From Candidatus Woesearchaeota archaeon (GTDB lineage: Archaea > Nanobdellota > Nanobdellia > Woesearchaeales > JACPBV01): DNA of 35,716 bases. Where the stretch lies: NCBI GenBank assembly GCA_016188175.1, contig JACPII010000008.1, forward strand, positions 1 through 35,716, in the 5' to 3' direction. A program made the position numbers and the translations under genes. Below the pieces are notes generated by a model. That model was given only the letters and a program-made list of their open reading frames with translations. It made no database searches and was not told where the DNA came from. This document shows, piece by piece, positions 2,145-22,462 of the stretch. Numbering within the stretch: position 1 is the stretch's first letter; each line of letters begins with the position of its first letter.

Positions 2145-3488
2145 TTATGGTGATTCAAGCGATAGTTTGTCCCCGTCATGGAGCAGATGGACATTCTTGC
2201 CTAGAATATACCCCTTTTCCACAGCAAGGCTCGCAAGGGCTCCCTTCATCCCGTCATCCCCGTGCGCAGGGATAAGATGATGGGGTTTTACGATATTGAG
2301 GAGGTCTCTAAGATCCTCGCGGGAAGCATGGCCGGAGACATGGATGTCAGTAAATATCCTCACATGATGCTGCTTCAATTTGTCCTCAAGCGCCCTCCGA
2401 TTCTCGATGTTGATGGGCGACGGGATAATGCCGCAGGAAAAGATGACGTGGTCTTCGGGATGGAACGGAAACGGGATTATCCCCTGGGCCATCTTCACAA
2501 GGACAGAATTTGGCTCCCCCTGATGCCCCGTAACGACAAGAAGATATTTATCGAGTTGATCCCCTATCTTCACGATCCGTTTCTTTATTTGTTTTCCAAA
2601 CCTGACCAGCTCTACTTCCTTGGAGAAATTAACAAGGCCGATATCTTCTCCAGCCCCAGCATATTTCGCAAGGCTCCTTCCCAGGAATATAACCTTTCTC
2701 TTGAGGTGCTTGCCAAACTCGATGATGGACTTCAGCCGGGCAAGATGGGAGGCAAAAGTAGTCACCATGATGGCCTTTCCTTTGCTGTTCACCCCTAAAA
2801 GCACATCCCGCAGCATCTCCCGCGCGACTATTTCCGAAGGGGTCTTCATCTCTTTTGCTGCCCGGGTAGAGTCGCATATCAGAACCCTCACCCCTTCCTT
2901 TCCGAGCTCCTGCAGCCGCTCATAGTTCGGCCGTTTTCCGATCGTAGGATGATTGTCAAACTTGAAATCGTTTGCATACAGCACCGCGCCCTCGGGAGTA
3001 TGCAGCGCAGCCATCACCGTCTGGGGGATGCTATGGGTAACATTGATGAACTCCAGGGTAAGGTTGGGGGAAAGCTTGTATGTGCTGTTCACCTGCAGCG
3101 CCGTCACCTTATTTTTCAGCTTGATGTGCTCATCCTTTGCTATCCGGTCGAGGACCGCTTTTGTGTACGGTGTGCAGAATACCGGGGCATCATACTTGTT
3201 GCTGAGGAAAATTACTGCTCCAAGATGGTCAAGGTGGGCATGGGTCGGCACTATCGCAACAACCTTATCGCGCCACGAGGAGATGGCCCGGTCATCAGGG
3301 ATTGCGCCAGCCTTCAACAGCTCATGAGGGGAAACTTCGCTGAGATCCTCATTTTCATTTTCCGTAAATTGGACATACTTATCGAGATAAAGCCCCATGT
3401 CAAAGATGACTGCCTCATCCCCATACTTCACGGCGGTCATGTTCTTCCCGATGAAATTGTAGCCGCCGACGGCGCAGATGTCGATCAT
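2145..3488 (-). CDS. Archaeal RNase J, metallo-beta-lactamase/beta-CASP 5'-3' exoribonuclease
   Basis: A 447-residue beta-CASP metallo-beta-lactamase. It shows VGGYNFIGKNMTAV at the start, the metal-binding THAHLDHLG near residues 81-89 (HxHxDH), a later histidine in NVTHSIPQT, the aspartate ANDFKFD, and beta-CASP motifs including the C-terminal VSGHAS and LIPAHGDD. Archaeal RNase J degrades or trims RNA from the 5' end in the cytoplasm. The start at 3488 is leaderless: TATAAAAA (on the plus strand at 3511-3518) is 23-30 nt away. A MITE-like element begins 46 bp upstream of the start. PCNA follows in the same direction. Confidence 0.93.
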   Translation of the reverse strand: MIDICAVGGYNFIGKNMTAVKYGDEAVIFDMGLYLDKYVQFTENENEDLSEVSPHELLKAGAIPDDRAISSWRDKVVAIVPTHAHLDHLGAVIFLSNKYDAPVFCTPYTKAVLDRIAKDEHIKLKNKVTALQVNSTYKLSPNLTLEFINVTHSIPQTVMAALHTPEGAVLYANDFKFDNHPTIGKRPNYERLQELGKEGVRVLICDSTRAAKEMKTPSEIVAREMLRDVLLGVNSKGKAIMVTTFASHLARLKSIIEFGKHLKRKVIFLGRSLAKYAGAGEDIGLVNFSKEVELVRFGKQIKKRIVKIGDQLDKYLLVVTGHQGEPNSVLVKMAQGIIPFPFHPEDHVIFSCGIIPSPINIENRRALEDKLKQHHVRIFTDIHVSGHASREDLRDLLNIVKPHHLIPAHGDDGMKGALASLAVEKGYILGKNVHLLHDGDKLSLESP

Positions 3489-3510: not shown

Positions 3511-3518
3511 TATAAAAA
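3511..3518 (-). promoter_or_regulatory. TATA box for the RNase J - PCNA operon
   Basis: TTTTTATA on the minus strand is centred 26-27 nt before the RNase J ATG at 3488. The MITE target duplication at 3525-3533 abuts its upstream (BRE) side. Confidence 0.6.
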
Positions 3519-3533
3519 ACTTCGCCCCTAAAT

Positions 3534-3733
3534 GGGGTTGGTGCGAAATGGGGGTTGCCATCCTTTTTGCGAAGCTCAATGATTGGAACTTTGAGCTGAC
3601 AGGGGGACGTCCCTTACGGGGATGCCTCCGAACGGAGCGAGGTGGTTCCAGAAATTCCACTGAATTTCTCAGAACCTCCGAGCGGTAGCGAGCGATGGCA
3701 ACCCGAACGAAGTGAGAGTTTCGCACCAACCTC
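3534..3733. mobile_element. MITE-like element, family A, copy 1
   Basis: A 200-bp element with near-perfect 15-bp terminal inverted repeats. The left end is GGGGTTGGTGCGAAA; the right end read in reverse is GAGGTTGGTGCGAAA. It is flanked by a 9-bp direct repeat CCCCTAAAT at 3525-3533 and 3734-3742, the expected target-site duplication. Subterminal arms GGGTTGCCATC / GATGGCAACCC extend the palindrome. Internal hairpins include AGCTCAA/TTGAGCT and GTCCC-ttac-GGGGA. The frames inside are shadows and encode no transposase, so it would be non-autonomous. A second copy is at 22088-22299. Confidence 0.85.
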
Positions 3734-3819
3734 CCCCTAAATGAACCTCAAAATAGATTATCTCCCCAAGACCTAATCCAGATATTATCAAGAAAAAAGA
3801 TTATGTGGGGAAAAGATTA

Positions 3820-3836
3820 TGCGAGGAGGAGGATTC
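3820..3836 (-). repeat. 17-bp duplicate of the tRNA-Leu 3' end
   Basis: TGCGAGGAGGAGGATTC here is identical to 3918-3934, the acceptor stem and part of the T arm of tRNA-Leu. The two copies lie 98 bp apart in direct orientation. The 85 bp between hold small hairpins (GAACC-gaa-GGTTC) and no gene. It could be a scar of tRNA-targeted integration or a partial gene duplication. Confidence 0.6.
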
Positions 3837-3896
3837 CCACGTCAGAACCGAAGGTTCCGACACCTCCTGAGAGGGGTTTCGCTTCGCTCAAGCCCA

Positions 3897-3917
3897 GAAA
3901 GAAAAAAAAGAAAAAAA
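3897..3917 (-). terminator. Poly-T terminator of tRNA-Leu
   Basis: The plus strand is an almost pure A run just beyond the tRNA 3' end. The tRNA transcript therefore runs into a long T tract, the typical archaeal termination signal. Confidence 0.6.
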
Positions 3918-4054
3918 TGCGAGGAGGAGGATTCGAACCCCCGTAGGCACTAAGCCAATAGATGACTTACACGGATTTATCATCGCACTCGGTCAGAGCA
4001 CTCAACACTCAAATGCCTTGAGTCTATCCCGTTTGGCCGCTCCGGCATCCTCGC
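3918..4054 (-). tRNA. tRNA-Leu(CAA) with a 53-nt intron
   Basis: Read on the minus strand, the acceptor stem GCGAGGA/TCCTCGC pairs perfectly, with A73 encoded at 3918. The D arm is CCG...CGG with a Leu-type GGCCAAA loop. The T arm is GGGGG-TTCGAAT-CCTCC, and a 15-nt class II variable region is present. The anticodon stem ATAGA/TCTAT closes the loop CTCAAGA only if 3964-4016 is removed, which puts the intron at the canonical position 37/38. The anticodon is CAA (codon UUG). A TATA box (TTTTTTATAG) lies at 4082-4091 and a T-run follows the 3' end. Confidence 0.9.
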
Positions 4055-4081
4055 AAAACCCAGTGAAGAATAAAGCCCCGC

Positions 4082-16700: not shown

Positions 16701-17021
16701 AGGACCACCGCTTAGCTAACGGTTCCTCCCGAAAGGGAGTCTGAACTGAGGAAAGTCCACCCTCCCCTTGCCTCTGGCAAGGCGAAAGCTGCTCACGGCA
16801 GTGAGGCGCAGTAATGTTCGGCAACCGCACAGAAACGAGACCCCTCACCGCGAGGATGAATGCTGTGAAGGCGTTGGCGACAACGCTGAGGTAACCAGCA
16901 GACGTTGCGGTGAGAATGGATGAAACGGCGAGCCCCGGCTGGAGCAAGTCTCAACGACGCTTAGTTCAATGCTAAGGCGGATGCAGCAATCATCCGACAA
17001 AAGGTGGCTTATGGTGGTCCT
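16701..17021 (+). ncRNA. rnpB: RNase P RNA
   Basis: A 321-nt RNA with P1 formed by AGGACCACC (16701-16709) and GGTGGTCCT (17013-17021). The conserved CR-I block GAGGAAAGTCC lies at about 16748-16758. CR-II/III-like AGAAACGAGACCCCTC is at 16830-16845, and GGATGAAACGGCGAGCCCCG at about 16916. The 3' conserved ACAAAAGGTGGCTTA (CR-V) is at about 16997-17011. It is the catalytic RNA that trims tRNA 5' leaders. The 5' end sits 26 nt after a TATA-like box, and a T-run follows the 3' end. Confidence 0.95.
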
Positions 17022-21412: not shown

Positions 21413-22042
21413 TTAATTATCTTTCCTTTTTCCCCTCAGCCATTCAATGGCTAAGAAAACAAAGATAGCCGCAAAAGCCCCGATAAGGAACCAAAGGGCG
21501 ATGCTCGGCTCTTGAGCAGCTGCTTGGATAGTTTCCTTAACGACAGGAAGTGCAGCCTCGGTCGATCTATCGGCGCTCGACTCCATCACTCTCGATGCAA
21601 TCGCAGCTTTTTCAACGCCGCCAAGTGATGCTTGTTGTACCCCCGAAGAGCGTACCCTCGAAAGGAGATGGACAATCCCGGCTCCGATGATAGTTATGAT
21701 GCTCGCCGGCAGCAGGCTTTTCAGCCGCTCTGTGATTCCCGGAACCGCCTTGGGGGCGATGATGATATATTTGTTTGCAAGCTTGTAGTGGTTTACCTCC
21801 TTTCCCTTTGCTGAGTAATGGAACTCTTCCGAAACCACAAGGCCGGCATCCTGCAGATGTTTAAGGTTGTAATGGACGGTCGGAAGCGGAATGTGCAGCT
21901 TGATAGAAAGTTCCGTGGAGGTCGCCTCCTGCTCTGCAAGGTAATCCAGCATCTTCCTGCAGCTCTCATTGCTTATCACTTTTGCAACTGCTTTTGCCTT
22001 ATCTTCCTGCAGGTTGAGGAGGAGAAATGAGCTTTTTGCCAT
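21413..22042 (-). CDS. Membrane-anchored winged-helix transcription regulator
   Basis: 209 residues. Residues about 12-95 form an ArsR-like winged helix (SNESCRKMLDYLAEQEATST, LHIPLPTVHYNLKHLQDAGL, VSEEFHYSAKGKEVNHYKLA). Two hydrophobic segments follow: about 106-128 (SLLPASIITIIGAGIVHLL) and a C-terminal one at about 182-202 with a basic cytosolic end. The loop between them may lie outside the cell and sense a signal (inference). The ATG at 22042 is supported by a TATA box 23-30 nt upstream; a GTG at 22045 is less likely. A MITE-like element begins 46 bp upstream. Confidence 0.8.
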   Translation of the reverse strand: MAKSSFLLLNLQEDKAKAVAKVISNESCRKMLDYLAEQEATSTELSIKLHIPLPTVHYNLKHLQDAGLVVSEEFHYSAKGKEVNHYKLANKYIIIAPKAVPGITERLKSLLPASIITIIGAGIVHLLSRVRSSGVQQASLGGVEKAAIASRVMESSADRSTEAALPVVKETIQAAAQEPSIALWFLIGAFAAIFVFLAIEWLRGKRKDN

Positions 22043-22064
22043 CACCCGAAAGAAGGGTTGTATG

Positions 22065-22072
22065 TTTAAAAA
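22065..22072 (-). promoter_or_regulatory. TATA box for the HTH regulator
   Basis: TTTTTAAA on the minus strand lies 23-30 nt before the ATG at 22042. It is 7 bp from the MITE target duplication at 22079-22087. Confidence 0.55.
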
Positions 22073-22087
22073 AGTTTGTATGGGTTG

Positions 22088-22299
22088 GAGGTTGGTGCGA
22101 AATGGGGGTTGCCATCCTTTTTGCGAAGCTCAATGATTGGAACTTTGAGCTGACAGGGGGACGCCTCCGAGCGGTAGCGAGCGAGGCACAAAAAATGGAT
22201 ATTTTTTCGTGTCCCTTACAGGGATGTCAGCCTTTGGAGGTAGAAACAAAACTGAGCTTGATGGCAACCCGAACGAAGTGAGAGTTTCGCACCAACCTC
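22088..22299. mobile_element. MITE-like element, family A, copy 2
   Basis: 212 bp with perfect 15-bp terminal inverted repeats, GAGGTTGGTGCGAAA and its complement. It is flanked by a 9-bp direct repeat TATGGGTTG at 22079-22087 and 22300-22308. The first 70 bp and last 35 bp match copy 1 almost exactly. The centre differs: it carries the GCCTC...GAGGC hairpin and a CACaaAAAAT...ATTTTTTcGTG hairpin. There is no transposase frame. Confidence 0.9.
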
Positions 22300-22341
22300 T
22301 ATGGGTTGTGGTAGGTTAGCCGGCTGAAGTGACTTAACCAA

Positions 22342-22462
22342 GAAACCCAACAACAACAATGGGCTCGACGGTCAAATCCTCGCTTCGCTCGGATTTGCCC
22401 TGCTCGGTCACCCCGGAGGGGGCAAGTCCCCCGACCTCGCCTCGCCATTGTTGTTGGGTTTC
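22342..22462. repeat. 121-bp palindromic element
   Basis: The arms GAAACCCAACAACAACAATGG (from 22342) and CCATTGTTGTTGGGTTTC (22445-22462) pair, the left having one extra CAA. Inside are the hairpins AAATCC...GGATTT and CCCCGGAGGGGG. No target duplication is evident and there is no gene. It lies between the MITE copy and the promoter of the 22621 gene. Confidence 0.65.

Follow-up and report, generated by a model that had tools for sequence, protein, structure and literature searches.

Bacterial elements of the TnGBS, ISLre2-type and ISKra4-group kinds carry Mutator-like DDE transposases and insert upstream of sigmaA promoters, at a distance of 15-17 bp from the -35 element (PMC3942029). In yeast, the Ty3 retrotransposon integrates in a narrow window upstream of genes, and cryo-EM has shown its intasome in contact with TBP within TFIIIB (PMC8632968). 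For the archaeal element ISH6, which duplicates an AT-rich target, a possible promoter preference has merely been suggested (PMC3942029); in that element, the duplication itself constitutes the AT-rich motif, no BRE/TATA register has been shown, and the transposase belongs to another family. The initial annotation of the locus described here had put forward, as far as its author was aware, that promoter-finding integration was undescribed for an archaeal MITE. We likewise found no description of BRE/TATA-registered insertion by archaeal MITEs or by IS5-family elements, including those of Archaea, in the open-access literature searched.

The window that we analysed is a stretch of 35,716 nucleotides from a Woesearchaeal genome (G000; 1.64 Mb, 75% complete). 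It contains two elements, A (3534..3733, plus strand, 200 bp) and B (22088..22299, plus strand, 212 bp), both belonging to the terminal-repeat family that we designated F1. Both are non-coding, carry 15-bp inverted repeats of the type GRGGTTGGTGCGAAA at their two ends and are flanked by 9-bp target-site duplications, and they meet the MITE criteria in these respects. The promoter-proximal end of A is its left repeat, GGGGTTGGTGCGAAA (3534..3548, plus strand), which differs from the inverted right repeat, GAGGTTGGTGCGAAA (3719..3733, minus strand), by one mismatch in 15; its target, CCCCTAAAT, is duplicated at 3525..3533 on the promoter side and at 3734..3742 on the distal side. In B, the left repeat, GAGGTTGGTGCGAAA (22088..22102, plus strand), is promoter-proximal and pairs perfectly over 15 bp with the right one (22285..22299, minus strand), and the target TATGGGTTG is found at 22079..22087 (promoter side) and 22300..22308 (distal). 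Within the window, the 13-base core GGTTGGTGCGAAA occurred without mismatch only at these four ends.

Both elements are located upstream of minus-strand genes, and at both a minus-strand BRE/TATA abuts the duplicated target. Downstream of A is an RNase J-like gene of 447 aa (2145..3488, ATG at 3488), with the BRE-TATA CGAAGTTTTTTATA, read from the duplication edge, at 3511..3524 (minus strand). Downstream of B is a gene for an HTH_20/ArsR-like regulator (21413..22042, minus strand), with the BRE-TATA CAAACTTTTTTAAA, read in the same way, at 22065..22078 (minus strand). Its ATG is at 22042; the ORF list starts it at a GTG at 22045, 3 bp upstream. The edge of the element is 46 bp from the ATG in both cases (from 3534 to the A at 3488 in element A), and the duplication at A covers positions 37-45 upstream of the RNase J ATG. 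The initial annotation, made from sequence alone, had given these limits, repeats, duplication and distances for A, placed its target against the TATA/BRE, and reported a second copy near 22042 with the same geometry and a different target. All of this held, with small corrections, namely the mismatch in the repeats of A and the listed GTG start of the gene downstream of B.

On its other side, A is neighboured by an intron-containing tRNA-Leu (CAA) gene (3917-4055, minus strand), which was detected only with the intron option of ARAGORN; a partial copy of its end apparently lies at ~3821-3840. Directly beside B, a separate inverted-repeat element (GAAACCCAACAACAACAATGG ... CCATTGTTGTTGGGTTTC) occupies 22337-22461 without an obvious target duplication. 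The window also contains an archaeal RNase P RNA at 16701-17021 on the plus strand (Rfam RF00373, 131.5 bits).

Copies in other genomes were collected by the terminal repeat alone, and therefore promoters played no part in the choice of copies. We obtained 87 insertions of two terminal-repeat families from 18 genomes of the same order, with both flanks available for 58. F1 was represented by ~9 copies in G000 and by copies at differing duplications in 12 further genomes of the order, thus meeting the MITE criterion of multiple dispersed copies at unrelated targets. F2, which was discovered because its interior matched the query, is distinguished by GGTCGCATTGAAAAGT ends and 8-bp duplications; it was present in 8 genomes, and its interior is partly common with that of F1. 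The duplication was perfect in 33 of the 58 two-flank sites and had at most one mismatch in 47 (counted by hand). Two relatives of the same order recur below: Candidatus Woesearchaeota RIFCSPHIGHO2_02_FULL_36_13 (G054) and Nanoarchaeota archaeon B4T1B8 (G175).

Several further features of these elements were observed. The F2 copies of G000 (L049-L056) lie at C87:1600, C40:1202, C26:15178, C25:8377, C14:5299, C55:8825, C61:15700 and C111:2977. F2 and F1 interiors are alike in GGTTGCCATC...GATGGCAACC and in hairpin modules, as if cores had been exchanged between differing transposon ends. One F1 element (L067, G000:C67:16572-17018) carries ~3 tandem repeats of a ~45-base module, GTTGCCGAATGAAATGAGCGCAACTAAGAAAATCCGAAGATTTTCT. 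A third MITE-like family, with ends GGGGTTGTTGCGAAA, was seen in G054 (L235 and L238, on C3 and C35); one of its copies adjoins AAAACCTTTATATA.

Promoters were scored with a general BRE/TATA consensus for Archaea, informative at 11 positions and placed at the duplication edge at phases -2 to +1 on both sides, with a score of at least 9/11 counted as a match. The consensus was written after some flanks had been seen, so the test was not blind; controls and sites were scored identically. At 53 of the 58 two-flank sites (91%; F1, 30/32; F2, 23/26), one side of the duplication had a match within -2 to +1 bp of its edge, and all 16 such sites in G000 passed. The control rate was 8.1% for 194,828 non-element positions and 12.9% for 18,961 positions lying between 15 and 150 bp upstream of an ORF start (binomial p ~1e-41 or below for 53/58 against these controls). 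As a phase control, windows of the same flanks were compared at a score of at least 10: the on-phase windows (-1, 0) gave 46 matches in 232 and windows 5-56 bp away gave 28 in 6,032, a 43-fold difference. Among the five sites under the cut-off, two or three look like weak promoters, and the others lack a matching duplication.

The logo of the aligned sites showed a BRE and a TATA on one side only; the signal was near background on the distal side and over most of the duplication. Counted from the distal end of the duplication, TATA starts at position 16 in F1 (9 bp) and at position 15 in F2 (8 bp), indicating that the promoter-proximal cut lies 7 bp before TATA in both families, which differ only in where the distal cut falls. 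The element can have either end towards the promoter (F1, 17:13; F2, 13:10). Ordinary promoters of the same genomes have a similar C-R-N-A-A pattern ahead of TATA. IS903 has an intrinsic palindromic target preference; we looked for such a preference on the distal side of the aligned sites and saw none.

Of the 59 promoter-facing ends followed by an ORF, 34 had 43-47 bp between the element edge and the start codon, which is where this distance peaked; the distance from TATA to the ATG peaked at 29-33 bp, as in leaderless mRNAs. The 46 bp to the ATG thus results from the register to TATA together with a leaderless mRNA; sites with longer leaders had a greater ATG distance and an unchanged TATA register. 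Promoters of tRNA genes are also targets: two promoter-facing ends lead to tRNA genes identified by ARAGORN, and two more (L060, L149) apparently do so, as judged by reading. The register is set by the promoter and not by the gene. The initial annotation had expected further copies to peak near 46 bp, beside a TATA box, and would have been refuted by copies at random distances from promoters; the expectation held, and random distances were not what the terminal-repeat search found.

A likely source of the transposase was found in G175, which contains ~10 copies of a longer element bounded by the F1 ends GAGGTTGGTGCGAAA and GAGGTTGGTGCATAA. In seven cases, the two ends could be matched to each other through their duplication, and every such pair has a promoter-like BRE/TATA beside one duplication. 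The F1 MITEs therefore have terminal repeats in common with an autonomous, multi-copy, transposase-coding IS, which is another criterion of a MITE. One end of the element encodes a 161-aa transposase N-terminus that matches the IS5-family model NCBIfam NF033579 (E 1.1e-6; the score, 28 bits, is under the curated cut-off of 140), and the opposite end encodes the C-terminus; the interior is missing from the MAG, whose contigs end within the element, so that no full-length F1 transposase sequence was available. No F1 transposase with matching ends was found in G000. Peptides from the F1 transposase ends had matches only in G175 and G054, with none in viral contigs or plasmids; weak matches in other genomes were rejected, being located in unrelated genes. 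For F2, no transposase with GGTCGCATTGAAAAGT ends was present in the loci retrieved.

The same register was seen in four full-length ISs, L283 (G000), L284 (G301), L287 (G180) and L288 (G175), which were assigned to the IS5 family by a near-full-length match, conserved acidic residues, terminal ends and 8-9 bp duplications. The matches of L283 (E 2e-32) and L284 (E 4e-29) to NF033579 were nearly full-length, both under the curated cut-off. The IS5-family transposases seen are 278-285 aa long with conserved acidic residues, and no extra domain was evident in them. Many IS ends of G240 lie in the same register; among one-sided IS ends from G240 and G301, 9 of 20 faced a BRE/TATA, near the half expected of single ends. 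The G240 MAG itself (L302-L320) is fragmented by two IS5-family ISs, with ~25 contig ends, and its one-sided ends extend the register data. Most IS5 relatives on haloarchaeal plasmids lacked recognisable ends or duplications and were excluded, leaving only ISHma10 usable. ISHma10 resembles the Woesearchaeal elements in its DDE transposase family (NF033579), its short terminal inverted repeats and its 8-bp duplication (8 or 9 bp in the Woesearchaeal ISs); however, none of its three insertions examined was in promoter register, and its transposase is only 21% identical to that of L284 in the alignment. The register is therefore not a property of the whole IS5 family; as far as these small numbers allow, it belongs to certain IS5 lineages.

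Orthologous sites without the element were also found. An insertion in G175 at AGAAAAACA has an element-free orthologue in G174 (L339) that is 74% identical, with no gap over 218 bases. Since this alignment is ungapped and reads as coding, the G175 copy entered a gene, and it adjoins a TATA-like stretch. The interrupted sequence (L074/L247 in G175) is apparently that of a phosphoesterase, and the presence of an IS copy at a TATA-like stretch within coding sequence implies that a true promoter may not be required. For an insertion at TACATTTCC, the orthologous sites in G174 (L345) and G178 (L340) hold a single copy of the target; empty sites without one, which would have counted against the initial annotation, were not what we observed. 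Only 6 of 55 testable sites were possibly inside an ORF. The precise duplications, the terminal repeats common with a transposase-coding IS and the empty orthologous sites together indicated that these elements move by transposition.

Like the TnGBS, ISLre2 and ISKra4 elements, the Woesearchaeal elements insert at a fixed short distance upstream of a promoter, with BRE/TATA replacing -35/-10, and, like those of the bacterial elements that have near-perfect inverted repeats, they insert in both orientations. They differ in host domain, in promoter machinery (BRE-TATA with TBP/TFB versus a sigma factor) and in transposase superfamily: the Woesearchaeal transposases match the IS5 model and not the Mutator/IS256 model, so the Mutator-like (p-MULT) criterion is not met. 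With Ty3, they have in common integration in a narrow window upstream of genes, and archaeal TBP and TFB are homologues of TBP and of Brf/TFIIB-type factors. However, Ty3 is a retrotransposon with an integrase, is confined to Pol III genes and has been seen by cryo-EM in its contact, whereas the Woesearchaeal elements are DNA transposons found at protein-coding and tRNA promoters alike, for which contact with TBP is only inferred.

The register is fixed and one-sided, it recurs across several IS5-family ISs as well as both MITE families, and the empty sites carry a single target copy. A and B are very likely non-autonomous MITEs moved by an IS5-family DDE transposase that inserts into promoters rather than at random. 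The promoter-finding integration proposed in the initial annotation is thus supported; a role of TBP/TFB, BRE-TATA sequence or DNA shape as the recogniser is only inferred. By inference, what is recognised is likely the promoter or proteins bound to it. In the proposed mechanism, the transpososome would be placed against the upstream face of a TBP-TFB-promoter complex, by analogy with Ty3 on TFIIIB. Cutting would then occur at two points: promoter-proximally at the upstream border of the BRE, with 7 bp between the cut and the first T of the TATA octamer, and distally 8 or 9 bp beyond that. TFB contacts the BRE just upstream of TATA (PMC4041446), which would put the proximal cut approximately at the edge of the TBP-TFB complex. 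Provided that the targeting is real, we lean slightly towards such a tether, although it rests on inference and no biochemical evidence implicates TBP or TFB. Because the core promoter is left intact, with the element always directly upstream of it, the gene stays expressible, and insertion at this fixed spot would let the elements spread without breaking genes.

The main rival explanation, which remains possible, is that the transposase itself reads the sequence, shape or flexibility of BRE-TATA DNA without any transcription factor. In its favour, the target logo is a clear DNA sequence, and the G175 insertion within protein-coding sequence, beside a TATA-like stretch, suggests that a working promoter is perhaps unneeded; TBP/TFB could, however, likewise bind a TATA-like stretch inside a gene. 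Against it, target preferences of DDE transposases are usually symmetric about the duplication, whereas the register here is strictly one-sided. Furthermore, the motif looks like the logo of ordinary promoters in these genomes, and it recurs across elements whose terminal repeats are unrelated and whose duplications are of two lengths.

Two other explanations fared worse. If insertion were random and copies persisted only upstream of core promoters, the others having damaged genes, most sites would be intergenic, as they are, and archaeal intergenic regions are short. Such survivorship is nevertheless very unlikely and strongly contradicted: selection predicts a one-sided limit and not a peak 1-2 bp wide, random upstream positions gave 13% against the observed 91%, and in at least one case coding sequence has been interrupted, at a TATA-like stretch. 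The phase control, in which off-phase windows of the same flanks were so much poorer in matches, led us to reject it. It is also very unlikely that the elements are immobile regulatory modules of the host that selection has positioned upstream of promoters. Similar internal modules do recur in elements with different ends and are common to many promoters; but the frequently perfect target duplications, the perfect terminal repeats in common with the multi-copy transposase-coding IS of G175 and the existence of empty orthologous sites all speak against this idea.

A bolder form of the TBP-TFB reading, which in our judgement could as easily prove wrong as right, is that a clade of archaeal IS5-family transposases evolved docking on TBP-TFB, an independent DNA-transposon counterpart of Ty3 on TFIIIB. 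Insertions by this clade would occupy a fixed position upstream of the BRE, in protein-coding as well as tRNA promoters, and the clade's MITEs may set common upstream sequences before many genes.

Previous demonstrations of promoter-directed transposition concern a single transposase superfamily in bacteria and the retrotransposons of yeast. The Woesearchaeal case is a third, independent one, in Archaea, with another enzyme family and base-pair-level precision. If TBP/TFB is the guide, a simple DNA transposon would exploit the very core factors on which Ty3 relies for guidance in yeast, and the mechanism would therefore be testable with few purified parts. The insertions also flag core promoters in uncultured archaea without transcript data, and they represent a natural experiment on replacing everything upstream of the BRE.
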